Part shown: positions 1 to 33,899 of the stretch, one piece after another
Position numbering within the stretch: position 1 is the stretch's first letter
Layout: each line of letters starts with the position of its first letter
From: a bacterium
GTDB taxonomy: Bacteria; UBA8248
Length of the DNA stretch: 64,000 nucleotides
Direction of reading: 5' to 3'
Assembly: GCA_022828125.1 (NCBI GenBank)
Contig: JAJEJD010000032.1
Span: 62,001 to 126,000 of the forward strand
The notes under the pieces: generated by a model
The model's database searches: none
Seen by the model: the letters and a program-made list of their open reading frames with translations, nothing else
What the model was told of the DNA's origin: nothing
Made by a program: the position numbers and the translations under genes

Positions 1-396
1 AACCTCCTGGGAATGGAAGAGGACTTCGCCGCTTTCGTCGTCGGGGGGGAGTACACCTTCAACGCCGTTTTCGGCTCTGCCGCCGACCTCGGCCTGCTCG
101 CCGAATGGAATTACGACGAGCGGCGCGAGCGTTCGAACTCCGAGTTCCAGAACGACCTCTTCTTCGCCGTTCGACTCGGGCTCAACGACGCCCAGAGCAC
201 GGAGATCATCGCCGGCGTCCTGGCGGACGCGGACCATTCCACGCGCACCATGAGCTTCGAATTGAGACGCCGCCTCTCGGACCAGTGGTCCATGAAGCTC
301 GAAGCGATTGTTTTCATGGACGTGGGTGAGGAGGACATCATATACGACACGAGGCGGGACAGCTTCGTGGCCCTGAACGTGACGTATAGTTTCTAG
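1..396 (+). CDS. C-terminal part of an outer-membrane beta-barrel protein (5' end outside window)
   Basis: The frame is open from base 1 and ends with TAG at 394-396, so about 131 C-terminal residues are present and the true start lies upstream. The sequence alternates polar and hydrophobic residues in beta-strand style (for example LLAEWNYDERRE and SFELRRRLSDQWSMKLEAI). It ends in NVTYSF, the terminal aromatic residue typical of BAM-inserted outer-membrane barrels. No signal peptide can be judged because the N-terminus is missing. The family is not recognised. It lies on the plus strand, converging with the P450 fusion gene. A second barrel gene at 7983 flanks the same cluster. An ATG at 13 exists but is probably internal. 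Confidence 0.6.
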   Translation, partial: NLLGMEEDFAAFVVGGEYTFNAVFGSAADLGLLAEWNYDERRERSNSEFQNDLFFAVRLGLNDAQSTEIIAGVLADADHSTRTMSFELRRRLSDQWSMKLEAIVFMDVGEEDIIYDTRRDSFVALNVTYSF

Positions 397-500: not shown

Positions 501-2531
501 TCAGACGGGCAGTTCGCGCCTCTGCTCGGCGATGAGGAACTTCAGCTTCTTGTTCGGTTTCATGGATGGAAGCGGGCTGAACCCTAGTTGATAATTCTCG
601 GGGGACACCTTGAGCGTGAAGTAATGCGCTATCATCAACAGGTTGACGGCCAGTTGCAGATCCAGCCACCGCGAACCGAGACAAGTGTGCGTGCCCAGTC
701 CGTACGGCGCGTACCCGGGACCGCGGTGCTCGGCCCGCGAAGGCAGATAGCGGTCGATGTCAAACCTGTACGGGTCCGGGAAAACATCTTCCATGTAATG
801 CGAGGCCGTCATGGCAATGGAGAGCCGAGCCCCCACCGGTAGTTCGTAGCCCTCGATCACAAACGAATTCATCACGTCCCGCATTGACAAAGGGACAATC
901 GGGTACATGCGCAGACATTCCATGATGCAGCGCTGCGTGACGTCGGTCGCTTCCAGGGTGAAATCATCGCCAACCGGGTCGCCGTTCTCGAACAGGGCAT
1001 CGGCTTCACGCCGTATTCTTTCGTAGAGCTCCGGCTGGGATGCCATGGCGTATACCGTGAAGCTGAACGCATCGCCGAGGTAAACACTGGCAATCAGCGC
1101 AGCTGACAGAACGAAACGCAGATTCGACTCCGGCATCAACTGCGGATCACTCGCGTGCAGACTAAGCAGGTCATCCGCGAGGTTCCGCGAACGTCCGGCC
1201 CGCTGTGCGGGCGTGTGGACGCTCTGGACCCGCTCCAGCAATACATCGATGGCTTTCGCCCGTCTTTTCATGCCGGGGGTTTTCAGCATGAATTTTGGCA
1301 GAGCATTAACGATGTGGGTCGAGAGCGCTCGTTCCTTATAGGTCATGAGATCGTTGAAGAGATCCTGCGATTCAACGCTGATAAAAAGGGGTGAGAGTTG
1401 CTCGTTAATCATGAGTCGACACATGTGAGTTGCGGAGTAGATATCTCCAACCTTCCAGCCCGCCATGTGATTACGGGCATATTGGAAGACCTGATCCAAT
1501 TGCCCTGCCAGCCTCCCTCGTGAATAGGCCATCGACAACGACTTGCGAAGACGGAAATGATCGGCGCCGTCCAGGGAAGGCAATACGCCGGACGCGCCAT
1601 AGACTTTCTCGAATTCGGCAAAATAGTCCCTGGCTCTCAGGTGCATCCGGCCGTGCCGATGCACCCAGCGGTTCGTCTCCGGTCCGGCGAGGAAGATCAT
1701 GGGTTTCTTGAACGGCGGGCGGATCTCGAATACCGGGCCATACTTATTCGTAAGTTCTCCCATGAGCGCGGGAATGTTGCCGGTGCGCATGTGTGGACTG
1801 AGCAGCATCCGACTCAGCGAGACACGCGGTATTTGCTTGTTCAGAGCGGAACGTCGAAGCATCGGGCTGGAGATGGTGTTTTTGACAGCATCGGAGATGG
1901 AACGACCGATCAAATCCATCCTGCAGATGAACTTGATGCGCTCTTCCGCCTCGTCATCAATCTCGAATATGAAACGGAAGACGTCGCACGTATTGACGAG
2001 ACAAATAATAATGATGTCTCTCGGATAAGGAATCGTGGCGTTGAAGATAAACTCGCTGATACGCGATTTGATGTATTGACCTGCAGTGTCATCTTGAAAG
2101 TTGCCGTGCCGGTTCGCATGCCGGTTAATTGGAGCAAGCGTCCAGAAATCGCCGTCGTGGTGATTCAAAATTTCCAGTTCAACCAGGCGCTCCAGTGTCA
2201 AATCTATAATAGTCTCCGCCTGGAGAGCGAGCCGCTCAATCCAGTATTGGGTGTTGTGTTGAACCGGTTCGGCTGCGATTTCCTTCAGAATGGGATCCAG
2301 GGCGGGGTTGCCCGTTTCCGTATCGTCCACAAGGAGCAGTGATTCCAGGTCCGAGTCGATGCGCGAGAGGAGAGAGAGTTCCGCGAGTACTGCGCCGATG
2401 ACGGCGCAGTTCAATTCCCAACCGTGTACCTGGTGAAAGTAGCCGGTCTCCTCGTTGAGGAGCATCAGGATGAACTCCTCGAGCAAACTTAGCGTTCGGG
2501 TCGTCTGCGAGAGATCGGAAGTAACAGCCAT
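501..2531 (-). CDS. GPP34 (GOLPH3-like) domain fused to a cytochrome P450
   Basis: This is one 676-residue chain with no stop between its two parts. Residues about 14-220 match the GPP34/GOLPH3 fold: a start like TLSLLEEFILMLLNEETGY, a helix with GAVLAELSLLSRI, a central YWIERL helix and a late IPYPRDIIIICLVNTCDVF helix, in the order seen in GOLPH3/Vps74. Residues about 235-665 are a P450: HFRLRK (C-helix), ExxR at E538-R541, FDIDRY, and the heme loop YGLGTHTCLG with proximal Cys617. The I-helix (about 480-497, SVYLGDAFSF) lacks the usual [AG]GxDT acid-alcohol pair, so oxygen activation may be unusual. GPP34 domains bind phosphoinositides or membranes in eukaryotes. A membrane-tethering role here is inference. 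There is no N-terminal membrane anchor, unlike eukaryotic P450s. The substrate may be sterol-like, given the two sterol methyltransferases nearby. Codon use looks more AT-rich than neighbours. Confidence 0.85.
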   Translation of the reverse strand: MAVTSDLSQTTRTLSLLEEFILMLLNEETGYFHQVHGWELNCAVIGAVLAELSLLSRIDSDLESLLLVDDTETGNPALDPILKEIAAEPVQHNTQYWIERLALQAETIIDLTLERLVELEILNHHDGDFWTLAPINRHANRHGNFQDDTAGQYIKSRISEFIFNATIPYPRDIIIICLVNTCDVFRFIFEIDDEAEERIKFICRMDLIGRSISDAVKNTISSPMLRRSALNKQIPRVSLSRMLLSPHMRTGNIPALMGELTNKYGPVFEIRPPFKKPMIFLAGPETNRWVHRHGRMHLRARDYFAEFEKVYGASGVLPSLDGADHFRLRKSLSMAYSRGRLAGQLDQVFQYARNHMAGWKVGDIYSATHMCRLMINEQLSPLFISVESQDLFNDLMTYKERALSTHIVNALPKFMLKTPGMKRRAKAIDVLLERVQSVHTPAQRAGRSRNLADDLLSLHASDPQLMPESNLRFVLSAALIASVYLGDAFSFTVYAMASQPELYERIRREADALFENGDPVGDDFTLEATDVTQRCIMECLRMYPIVPLSMRDVMNSFVIEGYELPVGARLSIAMTASHYMEDVFPDPYRFDIDRYLPSRAEHRGPGYAPYGLGTHTCLGSRWLDLQLAVNLLMIAHYFTLKVSPENYQLGFSPLPSMKPNKKLKFLIAEQRRELPV

Positions 2532-2703
2532 CTGTTATGGCCCCCTTGTGCCTGAATCCGGGAATTGGCACGGACGCCGACACTACCGTGCGAAACAATC
2601 GGATGCAGAATAGCATAACCGAGTGATGTGGCAAGAAAAATCAGACCCTCATAATGGATGGTGATCCCCTGAAATTAAGGCATGAAGTCGATAATAAGGG
2701 TAT

Positions 2704-3441
2704 TCAGCCGCCGAGAGCCGCCAGCCGCTCGACCGCTTTTTGGTGAATCAGCCGCTCGAAAGCGTCTTTCGGCGGTAATTTTATTGCGCGCTTTAGAAGG
2801 TCGCGCGCCTTAGCGCGGTTCTCGTCGGCATCCAGGCTCAAAAGTCCGTGCGCGTACTCGAATAGCACCACCTTGTCCCGGGGCGCCAGTTCGAGCGCAC
2901 GCCTGAAATGGGCGTGAGCGTCTTCTTCGCTCGCCCCGTAGAGCAGACCGGCGAAGAATCCACCGGCGCCGACGGCGCCCGCATGCCAGGCGCCCAGGCT
3001 GACGTGGGCGGACGCCGAGTCCGGAGCCAGGCGAAACGCCTCTTCAATCGCATCGCGCACTTTGGTTGCGTAGCCCTCCGTCAACGACTTAAGTACGCCG
3101 CTCACCTGCGCCTGGCGTCCCATGGCGTGGGCCAACTGAAGATGGGCCTGCGGGTTGGCCCCGTCGATCCGGATCGCCTTTCGAGCGAGTTCCTCGGCCC
3201 GCTTAAACAAGCCCATCTTCTCACCATCCGGCGCGATGTAATAGCCGTGAATCGCCAGTGAATCGGCGGCCAGCGCATGGCCTTCGGAAGTGCCGAGCGC
3301 ACGGGCGAGATCGGCCGCCTCCACGAAGCGGCCCTCGGCATACGCGGCGCGCGCCTCTTCTATCGACTGTGCGCAGGCAGTCCCCGCCGGCGCGAACGCG
3401 CACGCAATCGTCAGGCAGGTGAGTAATATGGACTTGTTCAT
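2704..3441 (-). CDS. Secreted TPR-like protein (possible sterol-trafficking partner)
   Basis: The start chosen is the ATG at 3441, with GGAAG just upstream. It gives MNKSILL, a classic signal peptide ending near TACAQS, and about 245 residues. The longer reading from 3471 would put charged residues ahead of the signal. The mature part is helical with TPR-like pairs: RAEELARKAIRIDGANPQAHL, AIEEAFRLAPDSASAHVSLG, HFRRALELAPRDKVVLFEYA and DLLKRAIKLPP. The organisation resembles periplasmic TPR proteins such as TRAP-associated TatT, and the Methylococcus sterol-transport protein BstC is described as similar. The link to sterol transport rests on position next to the methyltransferase and RND genes and is inference. 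It could equally be a generic TPR adaptor. Confidence 0.6.
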   Translation of the reverse strand: MNKSILLTCLTIACAFAPAGTACAQSIEEARAAYAEGRFVEAADLARALGTSEGHALAADSLAIHGYYIAPDGEKMGLFKRAEELARKAIRIDGANPQAHLQLAHAMGRQAQVSGVLKSLTEGYATKVRDAIEEAFRLAPDSASAHVSLGAWHAGAVGAGGFFAGLLYGASEEDAHAHFRRALELAPRDKVVLFEYAHGLLSLDADENRAKARDLLKRAIKLPPKDAFERLIHQKAVERLAALGG

Positions 3442-3619
3442 GACGCGCTTCCTGCGGACTGCGAAATCCATAGCCGTTTCGGTTCATGAGGATATTATAC
3501 AAAAATCGCAAGAGGCGTCCGTTTCGCAAAGAAGCCGCCTCGCCTTGGGGTTATTGAAACAATCCTTCCACAAACAGGAAACCTATTTCTCATTCGACAT
3601 AGGCCATAGGTTTATGAAA

Positions 3620-3784
3620 TCACTCCCCCCTTGAGGGGGAGTCGATGAAGCCGAGCGTATTTTGCGAAGGCTGAATCGGTGGGGGGTAAAATGCGTTTTA
3701 TCGCCACTCCGAATTATACCCCCCACCGAATCGCTTTCGGGCTTACGCCCTCAGCTCTTCGACTCCCCCTCAAGGGGGGAGTGA
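3620..3784. repeat. MITE-like palindromic element with 26-bp perfect terminal inverted repeats
   Basis: The arms at 3620-3645 and 3759-3784 are perfect reverse complements over 26 bp. Inside, a second nested pair (GGTGGGGGGTA near 3680 and TACCCCCCACC near 3717) also folds back. The whole 165 bp could form a long hairpin. It contains no coding potential. It fills most of the 405-bp gap between the TPR-like gene and the first methyltransferase, so it may separate their transcription. The remainder of the gap shows nothing recognisable. Confidence 0.8.
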
Positions 3785-3846
3785 ATCTTGCTCTTTCATC
3801 GGTCGCGTCAAACCTTCGTTCATCGACACTTCCCCAACGCCCCTCC

Positions 3847-4878
3847 CTACTCCGGCTTGCGGGCGAGGATGAAATACATCGGGGTGAAAATGCCGAGGCG
3901 GCCGGCTTCGGCCAAGGCGATAGCTGATATGTTCAGCATGGCCGCGACCCGGAAGCTGCCGCGCGGCGCGATTTTCAACAGTTCCAGCAGCCATAGCGAA
4001 CCGTGGGTCAGCCTGCGCCCGAAGGCCGTGCTACGGAAGTTCGAGAGAGATATGCCGGAACCGGCCAGCGGTTCATACCAGGGGATGCCGGGCGGCGCAT
4101 CGGCGGCGAGGTCGCGCGCCTCCAGCAGATCGAAGCCGGCCTCTCGAAGAGCGTCGTCCACTTCATGTGGTCGGGGGATGCCGGGCAGTGCGCCGGAATA
4201 CTCCAAATCGGTCTTGTGTCGATTGTGTTCCGGGTTCTCCGCATCGTACAAATCGGTCATGCAGTATTCGTAGGACGCGAAGCAACCTCCGGGTTTCAGC
4301 AGTCTGAACACTTCGCCGTAAGCGCAGACCTTATCCGGCGCATGGCAGTGCGCCTCGATATTATAGGCGGCGTCGAAACTGCCATCCGGCGCATCGACGT
4401 GCATGAAATCGCAGTTCAGATACTCGGCCAGATGGCTTAGATGTTCCGCTTCCGTCAGCTCTGCGGCGCGCTTCAACTGGTATTCGTTGATGTTGACGCC
4501 GACGATTTTCGCGCCGGAGAAGCGTGCGATCTCGCGCAACGGGCCGCCGACGCCGCAGCCCAGATCGACCACCACCATTCCGGGCTGGAGATTCAGCCTT
4601 TGCGCCATGTAGTGCTCGTGCCGCGCGAGCGAGGCGGCGAAGCTCTCTCCTTCGTAGCGCGGGGCGAAGTGGAAGGAGCGGCCCCACCCGTATTCGTAGA
4701 GATCGGTGACCAGGTCGTAAAACGAGTTCGCGAAATTCCGGTAGTCGGACTTGCGCTCGTCCAGGCCACCGCGCCCGGCGCCGCCGTAGCGCCTCTCGTA
4801 TTCACTGATGCCGGCCTCGACGCGGTCACCGGATTTTGCGTCTTTCAGGATATCCGTGAACCTGGATTTGGATGTCAT
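3847..4878 (-). CDS. Sterol C24-methyltransferase-like (Erg6/SMT family) SAM methyltransferase
   Basis: This 343-residue protein has the full length and motif set of eukaryotic sterol 24-C-methyltransferases. The family signature YEYGWGRSFHFAPR is at 61-74 (sterol-binding region I). The SAM loop DLGCGVGGP is at 105-113, the second family signature IEAHCHAPD at 174-182, and LKPGG follows. The C-terminal sterol methyltransferase domain continues to IFTPMYFILARKPE. These enzymes transfer a methyl from SAM to the C24 side-chain double bond of sterols. Bacterial members are known from uncultured bacteria. It lies 133 bp downstream of the RND transporter on the same strand, which suggests co-transcription. 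A second, divergent member lies at 10429. A tocopherol-type or other isoprenoid methyltransferase is less likely because region I is so close to Erg6. Confidence 0.88.
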   Translation of the reverse strand: MTSKSRFTDILKDAKSGDRVEAGISEYERRYGGAGRGGLDERKSDYRNFANSFYDLVTDLYEYGWGRSFHFAPRYEGESFAASLARHEHYMAQRLNLQPGMVVVDLGCGVGGPLREIARFSGAKIVGVNINEYQLKRAAELTEAEHLSHLAEYLNCDFMHVDAPDGSFDAAYNIEAHCHAPDKVCAYGEVFRLLKPGGCFASYEYCMTDLYDAENPEHNRHKTDLEYSGALPGIPRPHEVDDALREAGFDLLEARDLAADAPPGIPWYEPLAGSGISLSNFRSTAFGRRLTHGSLWLLELLKIAPRGSFRVAAMLNISAIALAEAGRLGIFTPMYFILARKPE

Positions 4879-5011
4879 GGCGATGCGTCAGTCGAGCATG
4901 TTCGGGCGCATTGGGTGTGGCGCTTTGCAGCGCACCTGTTGCCGGAAGTCCGCATCCGCGCAGCGCGAAGACCCTGTGCGCCGATCGGGAGAGGCGAGGC
5001 CCGGAGCATGA

Positions 5012-7294
5012 TTACTTCCGGTCGAGGGCTATCAGCAGGGGCGGGAGGAGCAGCAAATCCAGGATCAGCGCGAAGCTGAGCGTGAGCGCCACCAGGAGGC
5101 CGAGCATCCAGGTGATCGCGAATCCCGACGTGGCGAACACCAGGAAGCCCAGCACCAGGATCGAGGTCGTAGAGAACAGCGCAAAACCTACCGAACGGAA
5201 GGTGGTGCGCACCGCATCGGATGCCGAAAGGCCCTCTCGGCGCCCCTTCAGATATTTGCTCATGAAGTGAATCGTGTCGTCGACGACGATGCCGAAGGCG
5301 ATCGCGGTCACGAGAGAGCCGGCGGGCCCCACCTCGCTGTACAGATAACCCCAGACGCCGAAGGCCATGGCCGCGGGGATTAGGTTGGGCACGAGGCTGA
5401 TGAGGCCGAGGCGCAGGCTCTTGAAAATCCAGATCAGGATCAGCGAAATGAGGATCATCCCGGTGAGCGTACCCCACAACATGCTCAAGGTGTTCTGAAT
5501 GGCCAGATGGGCGAAGATGAGGCTGTAACCCGACGCCTCTTTCGCGAGACCGGGCGCGTTGGCGCTGAGCCATTTCTGCCCGCGCGCTTCGAGCGCGCGC
5601 AACTCCTCGGACTTGAGCCTTTTGAGCGTGACGGTCATGCGCGTCGCGGATTTGGCGACGTTGATGCGGTTGTTGAGGTCCATGCCGAAGGGAACCGAAA
5701 GCTCGTAGAGCAGCAGATACTGCGCGGCGAGTTGGGCGTTTTCGGGCAGCCGGTAGAAGGCGGGATTATCGCCGTTCATGTTCTTGTTGAGGCGCTTCAT
5801 GATGTTCGTAAACACCTGGACGTGCGCCACTTCCGGCTGGGCGCGGTACCATTCGGCGAAAGCCTCGACTTTTTTCAGGTACGCAGGAGCGGTGATTCCG
5901 CCTTCGCGCCCCGAGTCGAGGGAGTACTCCAGGGTTTCCACGCCGGTCAGGTTCTCGATGACGAAGTCCGTGTCGCGCCGGAACTCGTAGCGCTCATCCA
6001 GATGCTGCGTCCAGTTGTCCGTCAGCTCGACGCGGGGCACGCCCGCCACGAGCACGATCGCAACGGCGGCCAGGCCCCAGAACAGGAGCGTGCGGCGCGC
6101 GACGACGAAGGCGCCGAGCCGGTCGAAGAGGCCCGAACCCCCGGCGCTCCCCTGTCGCGCGCGCAGCGGCAGGACCGACAGCAGCGCCGGCAGAAGCGTC
6201 ATGGAATAGACGTAGGCGCACAACATGCCGAACGCCACCAGGTTGCCGAGGACCCGAAAAGGCGGAGAGTCCGAAGCGTTCATGCTGAAGAAGCCTATCA
6301 TCGTCGTGGCCGTCGTGAGGAACACCGGCCAGGCGTTGTCGCGCAGTGATTCGGCGATCGCTGAGTCCTTGTCCAGGCCTTGCCTCATGCTTGTAATGAT
6401 CGCCTCGACGACATGGACGGAGTGCGCGATGGCGAGCGTCATGATGATGAGGGGAACGCTGGAGTTGGCCGCGTTGAGCACCAGGCCGATCCAGCCGATG
6501 ACGCCCATGGTCGAGATGACGGTGAAGATGACCACGGCGACGAGGGACAGCGTGCCGAACAGGGAGCGCAGCAGAACGGCGGAGACGGCTACGATGATGA
6601 AGAATGCCGCGGGCGCGAGGATCCCCATATCGTCCTGGGCCGCTTCCGTCAGGACCTGGTTCACGAAGACGTTGCCGGTAACGTGATATTCGATGTCCGG
6701 GTGGGTCTTCCGGGATTTTTCAAGGAGGCCGCGGATATGGTTGTAAATCCGGATCTCCGCGGCGTCCGAACGCTCGGGCAAGGCGAAACTGATGACCAAG
6801 CCGGCGACGCGCCCGTCTCCCGAGACAAGACGGCCAACGAGACTGCTCTCGCTCAGCGCAATCTTCCTGATCCGCGCGAGGTCCTCATCGCCGAGCGAGC
6901 CCGCGTCGTCCACGAGGCGCTCCACGATCAAGTCGTCCTCTTCCGCCTCCGTGTGGTTATAGTTCGTAATGGAGTCGACCCGTGTGGTCCTGGGCACTTG
7001 CCACAAGGCCTCGGTCAACTCTTCGACGGCGGCGAGCGCCTCCCGCGTGAATACCGACCCGCCCTTGGGCGCGACTGCGATCACCGCCGCATTGGTCGCC
7101 GAATAGGTAGCCTCCATGGCGTCGAATGCGACGAGTTGCGGGTTGCCCTCGTCCAGCATGTCGCGCCAGTCGTTGGAGATGACGATGGTGCGGAGGCCGA
7201 CCGCCAGAATCAACATGGCCGCTACGCTCGCGGCGAGAACCAGCCGGCGGCGGCGCAACAAGAACGCAATGTAGCGGTTCAGAGGTGCGGACAT
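5012..7294 (-). CDS. RND/MMPL-family transporter (HpnN/BstA-like), predicted lipid exporter
   Basis: The start chosen is the ATG at 7294 (MSAPLNRYIAF), preceded by AGAGAGG, giving 760 residues; the upstream reading lacks membrane character. The layout is typical RND/MMPL. TM1 (about 17-40) follows a run of arginines. A large periplasmic loop comes next, then a block of five TMs including LRSLFGTLSLVAVVIFTVIS and LIIMTLAIAHSVHVVEAI. A single TM (LLFWGLAAVAIVLVAG), a second loop and a final five-TM block with the matching VTAIAFGIVVDDTIHFMSKY segment complete it. Single-chain RNDs of this type move hopanoids (HpnN), sterols (BstA) or other lipids between bacterial membranes. Its place beside sterol methyltransferases makes a sterol-like cargo the best guess. 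No membrane-fusion or TolC-type partner is adjacent. Confidence 0.8.
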   Translation of the reverse strand: MSAPLNRYIAFLLRRRRLVLAASVAAMLILAVGLRTIVISNDWRDMLDEGNPQLVAFDAMEATYSATNAAVIAVAPKGGSVFTREALAAVEELTEALWQVPRTTRVDSITNYNHTEAEEDDLIVERLVDDAGSLGDEDLARIRKIALSESSLVGRLVSGDGRVAGLVISFALPERSDAAEIRIYNHIRGLLEKSRKTHPDIEYHVTGNVFVNQVLTEAAQDDMGILAPAAFFIIVAVSAVLLRSLFGTLSLVAVVIFTVISTMGVIGWIGLVLNAANSSVPLIIMTLAIAHSVHVVEAIITSMRQGLDKDSAIAESLRDNAWPVFLTTATTMIGFFSMNASDSPPFRVLGNLVAFGMLCAYVYSMTLLPALLSVLPLRARQGSAGGSGLFDRLGAFVVARRTLLFWGLAAVAIVLVAGVPRVELTDNWTQHLDERYEFRRDTDFVIENLTGVETLEYSLDSGREGGITAPAYLKKVEAFAEWYRAQPEVAHVQVFTNIMKRLNKNMNGDNPAFYRLPENAQLAAQYLLLYELSVPFGMDLNNRINVAKSATRMTVTLKRLKSEELRALEARGQKWLSANAPGLAKEASGYSLIFAHLAIQNTLSMLWGTLTGMILISLILIWIFKSLRLGLISLVPNLIPAAMAFGVWGYLYSEVGPAGSLVTAIAFGIVVDDTIHFMSKYLKGRREGLSASDAVRTTFRSVGFALFSTTSILVLGFLVFATSGFAITWMLGLLVALTLSFALILDLLLLPPLLIALDRK

Positions 7295-7530
7295 CTTTGC
7301 CTCTCTGTCCAGCGGATCAAAGCCGCGGCTAACCCGCCGGTTCCATGGGCGGTTGTCTACCGGATACGAATCCCGATCATCGCAACGCGGCTTGCGCGGT
7401 GAAAGTCCATGACGCCCGGGCCGCCGCAACAGTGAGCCAAGTGGGGCCATTATGGCTTAGCGGATCGATGGATTCAAGTTTTTGTCCTGCGCCGGGTTCC
7501 CCGGACGGTGCGCGGGATACAGGGGGTTGC

Positions 7531-7804
7531 TGAAAAAGCCTCCTCCTCAGGGGATAAAGGCACCCCCCCCTACCCCCCCTTGTCAGGGGGGGAAGAAAAA
7601 GCCCCCGGAAGCAGGGAATCGGTTTCCCGTAGGGGCGGACCTGTGTGTCCGCCCGGTTGTTGATGCGAGCCTTGTCGCTGCTTTCTCCCCCTGTTGGCGT
7701 TCCAGCCCCCGATATCCGTTCGATATGCGAACTTCGCGTTTGGGGCGGACACGCAGGTCCGCCCCTACAAAAAGCGCAAACCCTCATTCATCAGGGCTTT
7801 TTCA
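7531..7804. repeat. Composite MITE-like element A (TGAAAAAGCC ends)
   Basis: Ends TGAAAAAGCC (7531-7540) and GGCTTTTTCA (7795-7804) are inverted. Inside are two facing 26-bp hairpin units beginning GTAGGGGCGGACC (7629-7654) and its reverse complement with one mismatch (7743-7768), plus a C-run/G-run stretch around 7562-7591. The same ends recur at 22410-22565 and, slightly changed, at 33692-33899. It occupies the 688-bp gap upstream of the outer-membrane protein gene. No gene is visible in the rest of that gap. A stretch at 7391-7440 that vaguely resembles part of a cobalamin riboswitch is discussed separately. Confidence 0.65.
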
Positions 7805-7982
7805 GAAAGTCCTATCCGCCGCATCCTTACCGCCTCAAAAAACTTGACAAACATATTGAGCGTCCGTGAGTATGTCAGGGCCTGTACATGAAGTGATCTG
7901 AACCGGAGAAGAAACCGGATGATATCGTCCGTTGAGCGATTACCGAGATATGCGCGAGTCGACCTGAAAACGAGGAGAGGAC

Positions 7983-8918
7983 ATGAGACTGATTTCACAC
8001 CGGCAAACCACCCGTAATCGAATAATTGTTGCGGCGGCGGCAATCGCCGTGTTTCTTCTGGGGGCGTTCACGCCCGATGCGCGCGCGGCGGATTCGAATG
8101 CCCAAGCTGAGGGCTCGAGATGGTACTTCGGCTTGAACGTGCCGGTCATGTTCATCGACGACTCGGACAGCGTCGAGACCGGGACAGCGCAAGGAGTCCC
8201 GTACACTGCGAACGCCCTCACGGAATACGCTACGGGGTTCCGGGTCAGCGGCGTGGTGGGCCGTGAATTCGGCGCGGGCCTGCGCGCCGACGCCGAGCTG
8301 TTCTTCGCCAGGGCCGAGGTCGACAAGCTGATCTACAAGGGACGGACGACCGCCGTGCCGGGGCAACCGCAACTGGGCACCATTCGTATCGAGGGCGACC
8401 ATTCCATCCCCGTGTCCGGCTCGGCGAGCCAGTTGGGCGCCATGGTGAACCTCTGGTACGACTTCAAACCCGGTTCCCGCTGGAGACCCTACGTCGGCGG
8501 CGGCTTAGGCCTTGTCCGGGTCGACTGGGGCGACGTGAAGTATGACCGCAACGAGGTCGCTCAAGGAGCCGCGAACGAGCTTGCGATCCTGCAGGCGCGT
8601 CAGCAAGCCGGCATACCTCCGGAGGCTCCCCTGCCTCCAGGGTTCCGAGAAACGGTCTTGAGCGATCCCAGGGTCGTTCTGCCCCCGGGGACCGTGCCCG
8701 AGCTTTCCGAAACCGATACTGTGTTCGCCTTTCAGCTCGGCGCGGGGGTGGGCTACCAGTATTCCGACGCCCTTACCTTTCAGCTGGGCTACCGCATGCT
8801 GAAAGCCAGCGACCTGGAGTTCAGCGGCAGGAATACCGCAGGTCTGGGCGCAACGGCCAATGCGACGACGGAAATGCTGGTTCATCTGTTCGAGATAGGG
8901 ATACGCTATCGGTTCTAG
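7983..8918 (+). CDS. Outer-membrane beta-barrel protein (OmpW/Omp25-like opacity type)
   Basis: The 311 residues begin with a long signal peptide: hydrophobic run IIVAAAAIAVFLLGAF, cleavage near DARAAD. A barrel follows, with strands such as RWYFGLNVPVMFI, LRADAELFFARAEV, RWRPYVGGGLGLVRVDW and FAFQLGAGVGYQYSDALTFQ, and a terminal IGIRYRF with C-terminal Phe. The GGGLGLVRV and GAGVGYQYS patterns are typical of eight-stranded OmpA/OmpW-like opacity proteins. GAGGAGAGG lies just upstream of the ATG. A proline-rich loop (about 215-235) is probably extracellular. It lies 130 bp ahead of the Rieske oxygenase on the same strand. A role in passage of hydrophobic substrates is plausible from context only. 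Confidence 0.75.
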   Translation: MRLISHRQTTRNRIIVAAAAIAVFLLGAFTPDARAADSNAQAEGSRWYFGLNVPVMFIDDSDSVETGTAQGVPYTANALTEYATGFRVSGVVGREFGAGLRADAELFFARAEVDKLIYKGRTTAVPGQPQLGTIRIEGDHSIPVSGSASQLGAMVNLWYDFKPGSRWRPYVGGGLGLVRVDWGDVKYDRNEVAQGAANELAILQARQQAGIPPEAPLPPGFRETVLSDPRVVLPPGTVPELSETDTVFAFQLGAGVGYQYSDALTFQLGYRMLKASDLEFSGRNTAGLGATANATTEMLVHLFEIGIRYRF

Positions 8919-9048
8919 GCGTCGCGTGGCTCCTGAACGTCCCGCCGGGACGAGGAAGACAATTACGCGCGCCTCATACGGTTGCCCGGCCGGGCATGAC
9001 GCCGGCCGAACCCGAAGGTGCAGCAGCCTTTGAACCGGGGGATGGCGG

Positions 9049-10086
9049 ATGCCGATGAAAACCGAGCGAATCGAGCGCAGAGAAACAGCCTCGCTTTACC
9101 CATTCCCGGAAGGCTGGTACTTCATCGCCACCCGAAAGACGATAGAGAAAAAGAAGCTGATCCAAAGAACCTGGATGGGCGAGCAAATCGTCGTCTGGTG
9201 CGACGATGAGGGGCGCATTTGCGTGGCGAAGGATCTCTGTCCTCATCTGGGATCGGAACTCGGTCCCGAAGTTGGTGGGCAGGTGCGCGACGGCTGCCTC
9301 GTCTGTCCCTTTCACGGGTTCGAGTACGACGCCACGGGGCAATGCGTCAAGACGCCCTACGCGCCTGCGCCCAGAACCGCCAGGCTGAACGTGTTCGAGA
9401 CGCGCGAAATCCTGGGCCTCGTCTTCGCCTGGCGGGGGGTCGGCGGACGGCCGCCGCAATGGAGTCTCCCCGAAGAGCCGAGCGGAGACGACTGGAGCGA
9501 CCTCGAAACCTGGAGCGTCAAGTTCACGGGGCATCCCCAGGAGACGACCGAGAACTCCGTCGACGACGGGCATCTGCGCTACGTGCACGGCTTCGGCAGC
9601 GTGAACCGGGTCGGAACGATAGAGGTGGAGGGCTCCTACCTCAAGAGCTGCTTCGACTTCACGCGAAGCCAGACTCTCGCCGGGATGAATATCTACACAT
9701 ACGACGTTTCCGCCGTCACCCACGTGCACGGGCTGGGCTATTCGTTCGTCGAGGTTCACGAGGACGGCATCGGCATGGATACGCGCCTGTGGGTGCTCGC
9801 GACGCCGGTCGACGACGACCTGCTCGAAATGGTGCTGGTCAGCCAGGTGAAGCGGTTGCGCAAGCCGAAGCGGCCGATCTTCGGCATGCGCTTCCTGCCG
9901 ACCGGCCTGCGCACCCGGCTCATGAACAAAATCATCATGGCGGCCCAGAAGCGCGACGTTTTATCGGACGTCGTCATATGGGATCGAAAAAAATACATAC
10001 CCCGTCCCCGTCTGTGCAGCTCCGACGGGGAGATTGGAACCTTCCGGCGCTACTGTGAGCAGTTCTACCCGGATGGGGACTGTTGA
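9049..10086 (+). CDS. Rieske non-heme iron oxygenase, sterol-type (KshA/Neverland/SdmA-like)
   Basis: This 345-residue terminal oxygenase has an N-terminal Rieske domain with CPHLG (Cys64, His66) and CPFHG (Cys86, His89) for the [2Fe-2S] cluster. The catalytic domain follows, with ENSVDDGHLRYVHG, where Asp172/173, His175 and His180 fit the mononuclear iron site. Related enzymes act on steroid rings: KshA 9-hydroxylation, Neverland/DAF-36 7,8-desaturation, and bacterial SdmA C4 demethylation. They need a reductase partner, and none is present in the window. It is followed by a sterol methyltransferase and then by a truncated copy of itself. The sterol substrate is inferred from family plus neighbours. 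A different hydrophobic substrate cannot be excluded. Confidence 0.8.
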   Translation: MPMKTERIERRETASLYPFPEGWYFIATRKTIEKKKLIQRTWMGEQIVVWCDDEGRICVAKDLCPHLGSELGPEVGGQVRDGCLVCPFHGFEYDATGQCVKTPYAPAPRTARLNVFETREILGLVFAWRGVGGRPPQWSLPEEPSGDDWSDLETWSVKFTGHPQETTENSVDDGHLRYVHGFGSVNRVGTIEVEGSYLKSCFDFTRSQTLAGMNIYTYDVSAVTHVHGLGYSFVEVHEDGIGMDTRLWVLATPVDDDLLEMVLVSQVKRLRKPKRPIFGMRFLPTGLRTRLMNKIIMAAQKRDVLSDVVIWDRKKYIPRPRLCSSDGEIGTFRRYCEQFYPDGDC

Positions 10087-10150
10087 AAAAGACCGAGGCG
10101 CGAGTGTTCGACGCGGACGGATAAGAGGAATTGACGCGAGGGTGTGTAGT

Positions 10151-10380
10151 GACAGGTCGCGACCTGTCCCTACGGTAGCCATTCAAGAAGATGTGTAGGG
10201 GTCGCCGGGCCGGATTGACCCACCGCGCGGCATCGAGCTTCGCAGAACGCTTGACGCCCTCATCCCGGGCGAGCGCCCCAAACCCTCATCCTGAGTAGGC
10301 GCGTAAGCGCCGTATCGAAGGATGGGGGGCGTAAATTTCGCCCTTCGATATGCCGCCTGCGGCGGCTACTCAGGGTGAGG
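10151..10380. repeat. Short palindromic intergenic repeats
   Basis: The gap before the second methyltransferase contains three structures. At 10151-10168 is a perfect 18-bp palindrome around GGTCGCGACC followed by CCCTAC, related to the GTAGGGGC hairpin family. At 10284-10298 and 10366-10380 are inverted CCTCATCCTGAGTAG arms with one mismatch. Nested inside, TATCGAAGG (10313-10321) faces CCTTCGATA (10342-10350). A TGTTGAAAAAG sequence like the ends of elements A-C occurs at the 3' end of the Rieske gene near 10080. No gene is seen here. Confidence 0.6.
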
Positions 10381-10428
10381 CGGAGCGGCGGGCTACGCAG
10401 GACAAAGAGGGAAGGGATACGCTACGCC

Positions 10429-11463
10429 ATGGATATAGGCAAGCTATCGAAAGATCTCAAGGATGCGTACGGGGGGGAGGACGTCACCCCCCGCGTGCAT
10501 GACTTCGAGGGATGGATCGACCGGGCGGCGGCGGAGTCCGACGGCGCGAGCGGGTACGACCACACCGAAACGGTAAAGGCCTACTACGACCTTTGCAGCG
10601 GTTTCATGGTGTGGGGTTGGGGCGAATCCCTGCACTTCGCGCCCCTCTCGCCCGAGGAGAGTCTGGAGGAGTCCAAAGTCCAGCATCAGCGGTTTATGAT
10701 CGACAAATTGGAGTTGCAGAGGGGCATGACGGTGATCGATGTCGGTTGCGGGATCGGCGGCCCGATGCGCCACGTCGCCCGTGAGGCGGGCGTCCGGGTC
10801 GTCGGGGTCAACATCAACAAAATCCAGTTGGAGAGGGCGAGGAGGTTGACCGCCGAGGCGGGACTCGACCACATGATCGACTACGAGGCGTGCAGTTTCA
10901 TGGACATGAGCGCCATCGGGGACGGGGTGTTCGACCGGGGCTACGCCATCGAGTCGACGTGCCATGCGCCCGACAAGCAACGCGCGTTCGAGGAGATATA
11001 CCGCGTGCTGAAACCCGGCGCCCTGTTCTGGGGGCAGGAGATGTGTCTGACGGACGAGTTCGACCCGAACGACGCCCGGCACCGGGCCATCAAGCGCGAA
11101 CTCATGCGCGGCATCGCGCTCAAGGAGATAGCGACGTTCGGGGAAGTGAACCAGGCGCTCGAAGCGGCGGGATTCGAAGTCACCGAAGGGATGGATCGGG
11201 ACGTCCAGGAGGGGCCGTCCACCCCATGGTATCAACCCATGGAGAGCCGGCACGGGACGTTGGGCAACGCCTTGCGCAGGCTTCCGCAGGGCCGCAGAGC
11301 GTTCCTCGCAGGCTCGAAGCTGGCCGAGGTGGTTCGGCTGTTTCCGAAGGGTTCCGCGGAAGTCGTCCGGCTCCTGGATCGGACCGCGGACGCCTATGTC
11401 GCGGGCGGCAAATCGGGTATCTTCACGCCGCTGTATTGCTTCCTGGCTCGTAAACCCCTTTAG
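10429..11463 (+). CDS. Second sterol C24-methyltransferase-like SAM methyltransferase
   Basis: The start is the ATG at 10429 with GGGAAGGG upstream, giving 344 residues. Motifs fall at the same residue numbers as in the paralogue at 3847: a changed region I (MVWGWGESLHFAP, 60-72), SAM loop DVGCGIGGP (104-112), IESTCHAPD (174-182), RVLKPGALF and a C-terminal IFTPLYCFLARKPL. In region I, VW replaces the YEY that precedes GWG in Erg6, and the C-terminal domain is diverged. It may therefore methylate a different sterol, act after the first methyl transfer, or have shifted to another isoprenoid. It sits between the intact and truncated Rieske copies on the same strand. Confidence 0.85.
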   Translation: MDIGKLSKDLKDAYGGEDVTPRVHDFEGWIDRAAAESDGASGYDHTETVKAYYDLCSGFMVWGWGESLHFAPLSPEESLEESKVQHQRFMIDKLELQRGMTVIDVGCGIGGPMRHVAREAGVRVVGVNINKIQLERARRLTAEAGLDHMIDYEACSFMDMSAIGDGVFDRGYAIESTCHAPDKQRAFEEIYRVLKPGALFWGQEMCLTDEFDPNDARHRAIKRELMRGIALKEIATFGEVNQALEAAGFEVTEGMDRDVQEGPSTPWYQPMESRHGTLGNALRRLPQGRRAFLAGSKLAEVVRLFPKGSAEVVRLLDRTADAYVAGGKSGIFTPLYCFLARKPL

Positions 11464-11530
11464 GCCCTATTGACGTTCCGCCACTCCAAATGCGGGTGAT
11501 TACGCCCCTGCCTTGGAAGCCCTCATCTTG

Positions 11531-12013
11531 AACCGGATCGGATCGATATAGGTGGAGGGCTCCTACCTCAAGAGTTGCTTCGACTTCACGCGAAGCCAGA
11601 AAGTAGCCGGGATCAAGATATACACATACGACGTTTCCGCCGTCACCCACGTTCACGGGCTGGGCTATTCCTACGTCGAGGTCCGGGAGCACGGCCTCGG
11701 CATGGAAACGCGCCTGTGGGTGCTCGCAACGCCGGTCGACGACGACCTGCTCGAAATGGTGCTGGTCAGCCAGGTGAAGCGGTTGCGGGAGCCGAAGCGG
11801 GCGATCATCGGCATGCGCTTCCTGCTGTCCGGTCTCCGCACCCGGCTCATGAACAAGATCATCATGGCGGCCCAGAAGCGCGACGTTTTATCGGACGTCG
11901 TCATATGGGACCGTAAACGGTATATCCCCCGCCCCCGCCTGTGCAGTTCCGACGGGGAGATTGGAACCTTCCGGCGCTATTGCGAGCAGTTCTATCCGGA
12001 GCCGGGTTGCTGA
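11531..12013 (+). pseudogene. 5'-truncated duplicate of the Rieske oxygenase (catalytic tail only)
   Basis: From about 11531 the DNA matches the Rieske gene at 9049 from residue about 186 to its C-terminus, with roughly nine in ten residues identical. The Rieske cluster domain and both catalytic histidines (His175, His180) are absent. The codon matching Glu192 is an in-frame TAG (11549-11551). The remainder stays open for about 153 codons to TGA at 12011-12013. It cannot be a working oxygenase. It looks like the residue of a duplication of the Rieske-methyltransferase unit followed by deletion. The conserved reading frame suggests a recent event, gene conversion, or retained expression of a small C-terminal protein. 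Confidence 0.85.
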
Positions 12014-22660: not shown

Positions 22661-25600
22661 CTACCCCGCTTCCGACACGGCCTCTCTTACGCGCTGTCTT
22701 AACACATCATCGACGGGGCGGGAAACGTCCACGCCCGGACGCAGAAAGGAAAACACGAGCTCGCCCGCTTCGAGACCCGTCGCCGCCTCAAGCCCCATCA
22801 CGTAGGCGGCTCCCTGGTTCTCATAAAACGAGGCCTTATCCTCCGCTTCGCCCGCCGCGACGTTATCCGTCTTGAAGTCCACGACCACGAGCTTGCCCTC
22901 TTCTTCGAATACCAGATCGATGAATCCCCGGATCACCCTGCCCTCCAGCTCGAACACGAAGGGAAGCTCCCGCCGGCGCTTCGATGCCGCCGCCGCGCGC
23001 GCCAGAATCCTCCCCGTCCCCATCGAGTCCCGAATCAACCCCATGGCGTGTTCCACATCCTCGGGGCCCAGGCCGAACGTGCGGGCATAAGCGACGCCTT
23101 CTTCTCTCAAACTCTCCAGACGCTCAGGCTTGGGCGGCTCGAGCCGCGCGAGGATCGCATGAACCAGGCTTCCGAAATCCGTCCCTCCCGCATGGATCTC
23201 GACGTCCCGGGGCGCATCCTCTTCGTCAAGCGTCTGTGAGGCTACAGGCTCTTCCTCGTCGAATCCCTTCACCAGCCCGCTGGGAGCCAGGGGCTTTCTC
23301 GTCTCAACCGGCTTTTTGAGGCGCTTCAGTTTCTCATCCAGAGCGGCGCGCCGCGCAGTGATGCTCCCCGAGCCCCCGTTCACCGGACGGAATACATCGT
23401 CGCGAAGGCGGAGGATGGATTCTGGCTCCCCGGGCTCTTCCGGCGAAACTTCGAGGGCAGAAGCGGAGGCCGCCTGAATCACCTCGTCTGTTTCCTCCTC
23501 CGGGAGTCCCGCACTTTGCATGAACCCGCGAAAGCCTGATTCCGGCCAGAGCAGACAGTCCTTCGCCCGCGTCGCGCCCACATACCAAAGACGTTTGATT
23601 TCCGCTTTCTGAAACCATTTTTCGCGCTCGAGCGCATCCACAAAACCCAGCGAATCGAGCCGCCTGGAGCCTGAACCCAGATGTAAATCGACCGCACCCT
23701 TTTGACGATCCACGAGTGGCTGTTCCTGCAATCGACGTGAATCTACCCTCCCCTCCAAATCGGCGAGGGCGACCACGGAAAATTCCAGACCCTTGGCCTG
23801 GTGGACAGTCATGAACCGAACCGCCTCGCTCTCCCGGGCGTCCAGAAACGCCTCGGGTTCCCTGGCGTCGCGCCCCAGGTCGTATTGCGCCTCCAGATGC
23901 GCGGCGAACGCATCCACGCCTTCTCTCCCGTTCCCGGCATCTTTATGCGCCAAGTCCAGGAGCTTGTTCAGATTGGCGACGCGCTGCTCCCCATTCGATG
24001 AAGCCAGGAACAACTCGAACGCCCCCGTTCGGCGGTATATCTCCTCCAAGAGGGCGCGCGCGCTCAAGTCTTTTTTCTCCGCATGAAGCAGATGTATCTC
24101 CCGGACCGCCTCTTCCAGTTCCCCGGGCGGGTCTTGCGTTTTCAGGAAATAGCGGGCGAGTTCTGCATCCGAAAAACCGTACAAGGGAGAGCGCAGGGCG
24201 GCGGCCAGCGCCAGCGGGTCGCCGGGCCGCGCGACGGCGGATAATACCGATACGACCGCGCCGACCTCGAACTTTTCGTAAAACCCGTTTCCCCCGTCTG
24301 TAATAAACGGAACATCCGCGCCCCGGAAGGCGTCCTCGAACCGGGGATAGCCCGTGCGCGCGCGGAACAGCACGGCGACATCGCCGTAACCGACGGGGCG
24401 GCGCGTGTTTTCCTCTTTATCGTGAATCTCTACTTTCCTCTCCACCAACTCGCGGATCGCGGCGGCGAGACAGGCGGCCTCGGCTTTGCGCCTGTCCTCC
24501 TCTTTCACTTTGCCGCCGTCCTCGGGCTCATCTCCGTCTTGTTGCTTCTTGATAAGGAAAACGGCTGGGCCTGCGGATCCGCGGTGCGCCATGAGTTCGA
24601 CGTATTCGGGCTGAACGTCCGGGTTTTCGGGATCGTCGACGATGACGCGCGAGAACGCCTCGTTTACGAAATCGATCGCGCCGGGTGTGCTGCGGAAGTT
24701 TTCCTGAATATGCAGCAGGCGGCCATTCTGGAGCGAGCGAATCTTTTCCCTCACTTCGTGATAGACGGCGATATCCGCCCGCCGGAAGCGGTAGATGGAC
24801 TGCTTGGGATCGCCCACGAGAAACAGCCTGGCGTCATCCAACAGCATCTCGCGCCAGTCGGAGGCGTCTCCCTCTCCCGCGAGCAGGAATATCAACTCCA
24901 CTTGCAGGGGATCGGTATCCTGAAACTCATCGACCAGAAAATGCCGGATGCTCTCGCGTATTCTCCGGCGAACGGCAAGGTTCTTCCGGACGAGCTTGGC
25001 CGCCTGAAAGAGCATGTCCTGATAGGACAACAGCCCCGCTTCGCGCATTTCCCGCTCGAAGGATTCGGCGAAACCCCGGACGAGGGGAACCAGACCGGCG
25101 AGTGTGTCGTGGGCGATCATCGAGGCGCCTTTCTCTATTTCCGACCACAACAGATCGTGATCCTCCCGGAATAAATCGAGGTTTGCTTTCCCGGCCTCTT
25201 TACCACCCCAATTTTTTTGTGAACCCACATTTTTGTTCAGCTTGAAGCCGGGACCCCATAGCTCGCGCAGCAGTTCGGTTTGCGGAAGCCCGGAGAGGCT
25301 CTCCAGCCAACCTCTCGCTTTTTCGAGTTGCTGAAACGCTTTGTCCGCTCTATCGCTGCAATGGCGCTCGCCCACCTCCGCCCAGGCGTCGAACGCCTCT
25401 TTGATGGACGCAAGGATTTCATCGGGAGACGCGCCCTCGGCGCGAGGGAAATGCTCCCTCAGTTCGGGCAGGACGAGCAGGGCGTTGCGGATTCTCTCCA
25501 GATCGGCCGCCGAAAAGCCAAGCTCCAGGAAATCGCGCAATTGCGCATTCTCCGTGTTCAGCTCCCGCGCCAGCCAGCCGCGCCAGGCTTCGTCGCGCCG

Positions 25601-26014
25601 CGCGTCATACTCGATTTCATCCACGCTTTCCAAATCGGGCCGAAGCCGCGCTTCCACGGAGAAGCCCCGCAAGATATCGAGGGCGAAGCCGTGGATGGTG
25701 GAGATGCGCGCGGATTCGAGGTTATCCAGCGCGTCCTGCAGGCGCGCTTTCTCCTCCTCGTCGTCTTCTTCTTTTCCGACCGCCGAGAGAATTTCACGAC
25801 GAATCCTGTCTTTGAGCTCCGCCGTCGCCTTGCGCGTGAAGGTGATGGCGGCTATTTCACCCAAGCGCACGCCCTCGTTCCGAATCAGATGCAGGATTCT
25901 CTCCACGAGCAGGGTCGTCTTGCCCGTGCCCGCGGCCGCCTCGACCAGAACGGGGCCGCGCGTCCAAGTCGTAGCTTCATCCCTTTGTTTTTGGTCGCGA
26001 GGCTGCGCGTTCAT
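22661..26014 (-). CDS. addA: AddA-type helicase-nuclease (UvrD/RecB family)
   Basis: The start chosen is the ATG at 26014, overlapping the addB stop by four bases and preceded by GGGAGAGGG, giving 1117 residues. It has superfamily 1 helicase motifs: Walker A AAAGTGKTTLL (about 27-37), AITFTRKATAELK, FLVDEFQDTDPLQ, FLVGDPKQSIYRFRRAD, and a later VKFMTVHQAKGLEF-type motif (VRFMTVHQAKGLEFS). A C-terminal PD-(D/E)XK nuclease domain follows with RGFIDLVFEEEGKLVVVDFK. With AddB it would resect double-strand breaks and load RecA at Chi-like sites. It is of full length for the family. Confidence 0.93.
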   Translation of the reverse strand: MNAQPRDQKQRDEATTWTRGPVLVEAAAGTGKTTLLVERILHLIRNEGVRLGEIAAITFTRKATAELKDRIRREILSAVGKEEDDEEEKARLQDALDNLESARISTIHGFALDILRGFSVEARLRPDLESVDEIEYDARRDEAWRGWLARELNTENAQLRDFLELGFSAADLERIRNALLVLPELREHFPRAEGASPDEILASIKEAFDAWAEVGERHCSDRADKAFQQLEKARGWLESLSGLPQTELLRELWGPGFKLNKNVGSQKNWGGKEAGKANLDLFREDHDLLWSEIEKGASMIAHDTLAGLVPLVRGFAESFEREMREAGLLSYQDMLFQAAKLVRKNLAVRRRIRESIRHFLVDEFQDTDPLQVELIFLLAGEGDASDWREMLLDDARLFLVGDPKQSIYRFRRADIAVYHEVREKIRSLQNGRLLHIQENFRSTPGAIDFVNEAFSRVIVDDPENPDVQPEYVELMAHRGSAGPAVFLIKKQQDGDEPEDGGKVKEEDRRKAEAACLAAAIRELVERKVEIHDKEENTRRPVGYGDVAVLFRARTGYPRFEDAFRGADVPFITDGGNGFYEKFEVGAVVSVLSAVARPGDPLALAAALRSPLYGFSDAELARYFLKTQDPPGELEEAVREIHLLHAEKKDLSARALLEEIYRRTGAFELFLASSNGEQRVANLNKLLDLAHKDAGNGREGVDAFAAHLEAQYDLGRDAREPEAFLDARESEAVRFMTVHQAKGLEFSVVALADLEGRVDSRRLQEQPLVDRQKGAVDLHLGSGSRRLDSLGFVDALEREKWFQKAEIKRLWYVGATRAKDCLLWPESGFRGFMQSAGLPEEETDEVIQAASASALEVSPEEPGEPESILRLRDDVFRPVNGGSGSITARRAALDEKLKRLKKPVETRKPLAPSGLVKGFDEEEPVASQTLDEEDAPRDVEIHAGGTDFGSLVHAILARLEPPKPERLESLREEGVAYARTFGLGPEDVEHAMGLIRDSMGTGRILARAAAASKRRRELPFVFELEGRVIRGFIDLVFEEEGKLVVVDFKTDNVAAGEAEDKASFYENQGAAYVMGLEAATGLEAGELVFSFLRPGVDVSRPVDDVLRQRVREAVSEAG

Positions 26015-33691: not shown

Positions 33692-33899
33692 GGGGCTGTT
33701 GAAAAAGTCCTCTTTTCAGGAAGTAGAGGGGACGCTCCTCTCGACGGAAAACAACCCCCCCTACCCCCCCTTGTCAGGGGGGTATAAAAAGGGCGATGCG
33801 CCTTCGCCGGGCCGAGGGGGTTTTGCTTTTTCTTGCCCCCCTGACAAGGGGGGGTAGGGGGGGTTCCTCCTTTGACAAAGGGTTTTTCAACAACCCCCA
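33692..33899. repeat. MITE-like element C with nested C-run/G-run inverted repeats
   Basis: The ends GGGGCTGTTGAAAAAGTCC (33692-33710) and the reverse complement of the right edge near 33880-33899 match except for a few bases, the same end family as elements A and B. Inside, 33753-33782 and 33836-33865 are a perfect 30-bp inverted repeat made of C7-TA-C7-TTGTCA-G6. The interior differs from element B but one arm resembles part of element A. With the remaining sequence it makes up the 420-bp gap before the 3-hydroxyacyl-CoA dehydrogenase gene. No gene is seen. Confidence 0.72.

Follow-up and report, generated by a model that had tools for sequence, protein, structure and literature searches.

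The window, the whole stretch of 64,000 nucleotides that was analysed, carries at 501-12013 a gene cluster that probably serves sterol side-chain alkylation, oxidation and envelope trafficking. Its host is probably an uncultured sponge symbiont. A sterol methylation, oxidation and trafficking cluster had been proposed here by a sequence-only reading, and families, motifs and linkage to a full sterol pathway in relatives speak for it. All seven genes that it named are full ORFs at the positions below, each with family support. The features are as follows (window positions unless a contig is given):

-1756..-863, outside the window: LolA_like carrier, preceding a ~418-aa barrel
C30:58729-60084, outside the window: FAD amine-oxidase-family protein, preceding the same barrel
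13..396, + strand: C-terminal part of this outer-membrane barrel (whole ~418 aa, weakly DUF1302-like), which starts left of the window
501..2531, - strand: GPP34-cytochrome P450 fusion, 676 aa (GPP34 93.8 bits, P450 123.7 bits)
2704..3471, - strand: secreted TPR/helical-repeat protein, 255 aa, with a signal-peptide-like N-terminus
3847..4878, - strand: SMT1, sterol methyltransferase, 343 aa (Sterol_MT_C 81.4 bits, cut-off 21.7)
5012..7450, - strand: MMPL/RND transporter, HAE3-like, up to 812 aa (MMPL 116.5 bits)
7451..7982, no strand: intergenic region between two divergent transcription units, with short dispersed repeats inside
7983..8918, + strand: OmpW/OmpA-like eight-stranded outer-membrane barrel, 311 aa
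9049..10086, + strand: KshA-type Rieske oxygenase, 345 aa (Rieske and KshA_C, the latter 87.0 bits)
10375..11463, + strand: SMT2, divergent sterol-methyltransferase-family protein, 362 aa (Sterol_MT_C 57.8 bits, cut-off 21.7)
11552..12013, + strand: truncated repeat of the Rieske gene's 3' portion (DNA repeat 11529-12000 against 9602-10073)

Two divergent units leave the region 7451-7982, RND-SMT1-TPR-GPP34-P450 leftward and OMP-Rieske-SMT2 rightward. The cluster reaches past the left edge of the window with the FAD oxidase, the LolA-like carrier and the larger barrel, and this end adjoins the cluster in congeners (L015-L017) too. Gene order is kept in these congeners and largely in two Nitrospirota (L018, L043), and the GPP34-P450 and SMT2 genes are adjacent in many loci, spaced ~35-50 bp apart in many Chloroflexota, Gemmatimonadota and Latescibacterota; the cluster is thus not a chance assembly. 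Families, motifs, synteny, the synthesis genes elsewhere in the genome, the pathway linkage in relatives and the wide sharing of SMT2, P450 and Rieske are read directly from sequence. An identification of the FAD oxidase as HpnE was unsupported (27.7 against a cut-off of 283.05).

Both methyltransferases exceed the Pfam cut-off for Sterol_MT_C. They had been described as two Erg6-type enzymes, which holds for SMT1, whose region I (YEYGWGRSFHF) fits the consensus used for SMT/Erg6 (YExGWGxSFHF). SMT2 is a family member of a divergent type: its region I reads 'MVWGWGESLHFAPL', without the 'YE' of the Erg6 motif. Nearly all members of the SMT2 clade have M[VI]xGWGESLHF, and YExGWGxSFHF was not found there. 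Given its canonical YEYGWG motif, SMT1 plausibly performs C24 alkylation, and the substrate of SMT2 may differ, since the conserved region-I Tyr-Glu is lacking. The outgroup sequence, which we take to be that of yeast Erg6, serves as a lead only.

The GPP34-P450 retains the heme Cys and ExxR, and the I-helix acid-alcohol pair is replaced by Val-Tyr; the Tyr is conserved across the copies of the gene in other genomes. Among solved structures, the P450 domain matches CYP51 (sterol 14-alpha-demethylase) of M. capsulatus best. However, the residues aligned with the CYP51 I-helix signature G-x-H-T are A-S-V-Y, with Val-Tyr for His-Thr, and a GPP34 domain stands in front. Assignment as CYP51 was rejected because the signature is missing and because a true CYP51 (I-helix AGQHTS) coexists with the fusion in L018. 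With so unusual an I-helix the enzyme may differ from an ordinary monooxygenase.

The Rieske protein carries the CxH...CxxH and D-x2-H-x4-H motifs of the KshA type, conserved in its copies elsewhere, and KshA is its best solved relative. It is not SdmA (4beta-methylsterol monooxygenase), reaching 36.8 bits where the model (NCBIfam NF052579) requires 600; this was nevertheless the best match to the SdmA model in the whole genome. In L018 the genuine SdmA is a protein distinct from the Rieske oxygenase.

The transporter matches the Sterol-sensing domain (36.8 bits, cut-off 22.3). It had been placed in the style of HpnN/BstA, which did not stand: the BstA model (NCBIfam NF045600, cut-off 1400) gave no match at 0.001, and the HpnN models gave 61.7 against 751.85 (TIGR03480) and 34 against 1100 (NF052374). 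Another protein, RND2, reached 21.1 bits with the BstA model. What the window protein shares with HpnN, the hopanoid transporter, and with HAE3 MMPL proteins that have LolA_like partners is the MMPL fold and the presence of LolA_like and barrel genes close by; its scores lie far under the HpnN cut-offs. Its translation may begin not at the listed ATG but ~50 codons further in, at MSAPLN.... The predicted model of the TPR protein is close in fold to the sterol transporter BstC (7t1s; TM 0.68/0.74, 16% identity), with scores almost as high for PTPIP51 (0.64/0.71) and one further TPR protein. TPR folds are common, so the match with BstC is suggestive only. A Pfam scan of the cluster genes showed no BstB-like gene (phosphonate-binding-type periplasmic protein).

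Either synthesis genes elsewhere or the use of host sterols had been proposed, and a genome check for squalene epoxidase (SE) and oxidosqualene cyclase (OSC) located both, fused in one 1111-aa ORF on contig C31. The SE part is assigned by PF08491 (74.6 bits, cut-off 20.1) and FAD_binding_3 (76.0, cut-off 22). The OSC part passes TIGR01787 (506.9 against 322.7), contains the VSDCTAEA motif and falls just short of the narrower TIGR03463 (736 against 851); its best solved relative is human lanosterol synthase (E 5e-134). The residues at human T381/C449/V453 are A/H/V, from which the product is not readable. An SQS_PSY domain occurs twice in one frame of the same genome. No squalene-hopene cyclase was found there, the OSC fusion being the only cyclase. 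Single profile searches of this genome returned neither ERG24 (Δ14-reductase) nor a true SdmA nor a close CYP51, so that the pathway looks incomplete here and may stop short of a mature desmethyl sterol. The ERG24 model exceeds its cut-off in L018, in L123 and in Chloroflexota, and the control genomes gave no positive control for it.

Co-occurrence across genomes had been suggested as a check, and the gene set proved to be conserved in related genomes. SMT2, GPP34-P450 and Rieske are recurrent neighbours, with ~55-70% mean identity between phyla. Within 8 kb of SMT2, GPP34-P450 is present in 22 and Rieske in 18 of the 34 loci with flanks of 6 kb or more on either side. SMT2 and Rieske distances are correlated (Mantel r 0.81, p ~0.0005), and for the P450 r is 0.46. 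The core of this cassette is common to symbionts of ~10 phyla, mostly without sign of sterol synthesis of their own; taxon labels in the counts are those of the record titles, and the names of the cassette-bearing MAGs point to sponges. The L018 locus holds GPP34-P450, SMT2, Rieske, OMP, SMT1, SE-OSC, CYP51, ERG24, SdmA and an SdmB-like SDR together, and L043 has the same set with SE-OSC partial at the locus edge. In one congener the genes are split over two contigs, the first with SE/OSC-CYP51-ERG24-SdmA-SdmB-GPP34-P450-SMT2 and the second with Rieske-OMP-RND-SMT1-TPR-P450. Because the cassette genes adjoin SE/OSC-CYP51-ERG24-SdmA-SdmB in two Nitrospirota and this congener, they are tied to sterols, and the Rieske enzyme is set apart from SdmA.

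In the proposed pathway, squalene from the SQS/PSY double-domain protein would be epoxidised and cyclised by the SE-OSC fusion, the delta-24 side chain would be methylated at C-24 by SMT1, and SMT2 would add a further or alternative methylation. The product would then be oxidised by the GPP34-anchored P450, the KshA-type Rieske enzyme and the neighbouring FAD oxidase, passed by the RND protein to periplasmic carriers (LolA-like and BstC-like TPR), and moved by the barrels into or through the outer membrane. Substrates, reaction order, membrane anchoring by GPP34 and the direction of transport are here what we infer.

Many holders of the cassette lack SE-OSC, so it probably also acts on host-derived sterols. 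That this is its main business, with sponge-derived sterols as substrates, transporters for uptake or exchange and de novo synthesis as an occasional addition, is a tentative alternative of some weight. SE is absent, with no OSC-like match above the family cut-off, in 26 of 34 SMT-bearing genomes, although gaps in MAGs can look like absence. At least seven genomes without SE and OSC have the full trio of SMT2, GPP34-P450 and Rieske (L030, L036, L041, L042, L059, L061, L063), and OSC is absent from two congeners (G038, G042) that have SMT genes and a completeness of 93-95%. Several Chloroflexota encode reductases of the ERG4/ERG24 family close to the cassette, which also speaks for the main reading; some of them are without SE-OSC. 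A similar host-sterol argument was made for a chlamydial SMT by Brown et al. 2023 (PMC10070321). Against it, the window genome has SE-OSC, and the full pathway adjoins cassette genes in Nitrospirota and one congener.

It is unlikely that the genes tailor a sarasinoside-like defence metabolite, a triterpenoid or a steroid, for export by the RND system. The P450, Rieske, FAD oxidase and exporters look like tailoring sets, CYP51, ERG24 and SdmA were missing from the profile searches of the window genome, and literature cited by Kelly et al. (PMC9531527) links a sterol cluster of a Melophlus symbiont to a sarasinoside; but the annotated cluster genes include no glycosyltransferase, and a breadth of ~10 phyla better suits a membrane or host-interaction role. 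Methylation of a non-sterol lipid (hopanoid, quinone, fatty acid) is very improbable: CMAS and UbiE models also match the methyltransferase domains and the SMT2 motif is divergent, yet both proteins pass Sterol_MT_C, relatives show linkage to OSC, CYP51, ERG24 and SdmA, and squalene-hopene cyclase was not found, as noted. Least probable is steroid catabolism, with ring degradation begun by the Rieske enzyme. Its KshA_C domain and its kinship with KshA would suit this, whereas SMTs are anabolic, the Rieske gene adjoins a biosynthetic set in L018 and L043, and no other steroid-degradation gene is among the annotated cluster genes.

The likeness in logic to the SdmA/SdmB and BstA/B/C proteins of Methylococcus capsulatus (eLife 2024, PMC10942540), noted in the sequence-only reading, stands in part. 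Sterol modification again lies beside an RND-periplasm-outer-membrane route, with a TPR protein whose predicted fold resembles that of BstC; here, in contrast, a LolA-like carrier and barrels are present, putative C-24 methyltransferases are added, the Rieske protein is not SdmA, the RND protein is not BstA, and BstB has no counterpart among the cluster genes. An envelope route for sterols unlike BstA/B/C is proposed. Bacterial SMTs of sponge symbionts, Sandaracinus and Chlamydiae are reported by Brown et al., who place members of the SMT family within sterol gene clusters from sponge metagenomes and whose Methods mention 'fused SMO/OSC homologs', so that the SE-OSC fusion was already known. 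A term search of its main text found no mention of GPP34-P450, and the part consulted describes neither the KshA-type Rieske nor the transport module. Kelly et al. 2022 report ERG24-CYP51-LSS steroid gene clusters in Ircinia symbionts of many phyla (UBA8248 included), with horizontal transfer, ERG6 nearby and a 3765-position LSS alignment, long enough for an SE-OSC fusion; a separate SMT2/GPP34-P450/Rieske cassette, mostly without SE-OSC, is not described in the part consulted. Already known, then, are SMTs in bacteria, sterol clusters in sponge symbionts and the fusion of epoxidase with cyclase; the cassette, uncoupled as it is from synthesis, seems to extend this known kind of system.

Side-chain-alkylated steranes are used to trace early sponges and algae. 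Since the cassette core resides mostly in symbionts without sign of sterol synthesis, it may alter sponge sterols, fossil-biomarker ones included. The conserved, divergent SMT clade, with the GPP34-P450 and the Rieske enzyme to which it is physically tied, supplies a few candidate proteins by which bacteria might remodel host sterols. C-26-methylating enzymes were still undiscovered according to Brown et al. That SMT2 is this sought sterol C-26 methyltransferase (aplysterol or 26-methylstigmastane type), and that with the GPP34-P450 and the KshA-type Rieske it forms a horizontally shared cassette used by sponge symbionts across many phyla to remodel the sterols of their hosts, making 'sponge biomarker' side chains partly bacterial, is a speculative and quite improbable reading.

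The last piece of the cluster as first delimited is corrected: 501-12013 stands as to its genes, and at 11552-12013 the 3' end of the Rieske gene recurs in truncated form, the repeat measuring 472 bp with 90.9% identity to 9602-10073.

The genome containing the window (G000, contig C30, positions 62001-126000) is 3.9 Mb in size and 97% complete. All seven genes named in the sequence-only reading as a sterol modification and trafficking cluster are there, with good family support, arranged in two divergent transcription units. The cluster extends past the left edge of the window, where an FAD amine-oxidase-family protein (75% identical to one adjoining the cassette in Chloroflexota) was also identified.

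Features of the cluster
From 7451-7982, leftward: RND transporter, SMT1 (3847..4878, minus strand), TPR protein, GPP34-P450
From 7451-7982, rightward: outer-membrane protein, Rieske oxygenase, SMT2 (10375..11463, plus strand)
Start left of the window, end at window 13-396: barrel, ~418 aa
Left of the window: LolA_like protein, 209 bits

The end of the range originally assigned to the cluster (11552-12013) is Rieske-related, but holds only the 3' end of the Rieske gene in a second, truncated copy. This copy belongs to a direct repeat (11529-12000 vs 9602-10073; 472 bp, 90.9% identical) that flanks SMT2 and is a remnant of duplication or recombination. A short repeat of ~40 bp lies in the divergent intergenic region (7561-7602), with copies elsewhere in the window, including 33752-33863, one of them inverted.

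SMT1 carries the canonical YEYGWG region; its identity to yeast Erg6 is 45%, and that of SMT2 35% (both against a provisional Erg6 sequence). The SMT2 region reads MVWGWGESLHFAPL, a pattern retained across the SMT2 clade (SH-aLRT 100), which has a long stem branch and short inner branches. In congeners, an additional SMT-like protein with an altered region I (LYEIAWGRSHHMCS) is encoded at L126:7043-8056, and SMT1 at L017:10001-11030 is apparently frameshifted into two frames and appears to be an error or a pseudogene.

In many phyla SMT2 neighbors a GPP34-P450 and a KshA-type Rieske protein, here termed the cassette. Frequently an FAD oxidase, the TPR protein or a transporter of RND type (MMPL, or AcrB with HlyD) is close by as well. 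In most acidimicrobial loci SMT2 lacks these neighbors within the flanks covered. Between phyla, SMT2 proteins share 70% identity on average, the P450s 55% and the Rieske proteins 59%. Distances correlate strongly between SMT2 and Rieske (r 0.81) and more weakly between SMT2 and P450 (r 0.46), host relatedness also contributing. The GPP34-P450 retains ExxR and the heme Cys; in alignments to CYP120 and CYP51 its I-helix Glu/His-Thr is replaced by Val-Tyr. The Tyr is kept in cassette copies, and E-T occurs only in the distant locus L060. The P450 at the same position in three congener loci (L015-L017) is a different subtype, 44-45% identical to window 501-2531, whereas the Nitrospirota counterpart is 72% identical, which suggests from sequence comparison that the gene was replaced by transfer.

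When one genome per species was scanned, the two SMTs matched 53 loci. The nearest matches are MAGs labelled Nitrospinota; other labels are Nitrospirota, Acidimicrobiia, Actinomycetes, Chloroflexota, Dadabacteria, Gemmatimonadota, Latescibacterota, Rhodothermaceae/Bacteroidota and Truepera. Their bin names (COS, RHO and IRC series, among others) suggest an origin in sponge metagenome projects, and a study matching them is PMC8163846. Among 18 genomes sampled from the phylum, SMTs turned up in just one of six genera, a distribution that an acquired trait would be expected to show. In this genus, OSC was found only in the window genome (G000) and one congener (G041).

No description of the cassette was found in the literature, subscription papers being mostly outside reach, and a literature search on GPP34 yielded insect papers only. 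It is apparently an undescribed variant among known elements: bacterial SMTs and fused SMO/OSC (PMC10070321), sponge-symbiont sterol clusters spread by transfer (PMC9531527) and BstA/B/C (PMC10942540).

In the Nitrospirota locus L018 the cassette genes and SMT1 adjoin a fused squalene epoxidase/oxidosqualene cyclase (SE-OSC), CYP51 (AGQHTS), ERG24, an SdmB-like SDR and SdmA. The SdmA match scores 338 bits on a piece of 280 residues, the cut-off of 600 being set for the full-length protein. All of these genes recur in a second Nitrospirota locus, L043, where the locus edge truncates SE-OSC. In one congener, a single contig bears the pathway genes together with GPP34-P450 and SMT2, and another contig a window-like cluster. 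Because SdmA-like and CYP51 proteins are present in addition to the Rieske and P450 of the cassette, the latter two most likely have a different role. A genome search located synthesis genes outside the window, one of the two possibilities raised in the sequence-only reading.

Sterol synthesis loci
L004:9629-12964 (contig G000:C31, window genome): SE-OSC fusion, 1111 aa
L123:2820-19562 (contig G041:C23, congener): contiguous FAD oxidase, SMT, SE/OSC, CYP51, ERG24, SdmA, SdmB, GPP34-P450, SMT2

The 1111-aa ORF holds the only squalene epoxidase and the only squalene/oxidosqualene cyclase of the window genome. Its N-terminus matches FAD_binding_3 and SE; the cyclase part carries VSDCTAEA and is closest, among solved structures, to human lanosterol synthase. 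The architecture recurs in Nitrospirota, Acidimicrobiia and one congener. In the window genome the fusion gene is flanked by further copies of two cluster families, a second GPP34-P450 and another MMPL protein. One open frame of 719 aa (G000:C23:271589-273208) combines two SQS_PSY domains and is perhaps a fused HpnC-HpnD. No ERG4/ERG24 reductase, true SdmA or close CYP51 was found in the genome of this species, which may therefore lack nuclear demethylation or carry it out with other enzymes.

Squalene epoxidase was found in 8 of 34 SMT-bearing genomes searched, always in the same open frame as OSC (1116-1216 aa); the other 26 had neither. Cyclase matches in these, where any, score 430-480 bits in frames mostly of 650-760 aa, or are fragments; by score and length the non-fragmentary ones would be squalene-hopene cyclase-like. 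MAG incompleteness can account for some absences, hardly for all, and several such genomes retain ERG4/ERG24-family reductases near the cassette. The absences and the retained reductases together favor use of host sterols in these lineages.

The RND protein has an MMPL/sterol-sensing match; it had been likened to HpnN/BstA, and by NCBIfam cut-offs it is neither. The predicted TPR model (pLDDT 86) matches BstC (7t1s) with TM 0.68/0.74, and the PTPIP51 TPR domain matches nearly as well. The predicted barrel model, of moderate confidence (pLDDT 69), is OmpW/OmpA-like. A putative route would lead from the RND protein through the LolA-like and TPR proteins to the barrels. Elsewhere in the window, 22661-26128 encodes an AddA-like protein with a UvrD-family helicase and a PD-(D/E)XK nuclease domain, with no relation to the cluster.
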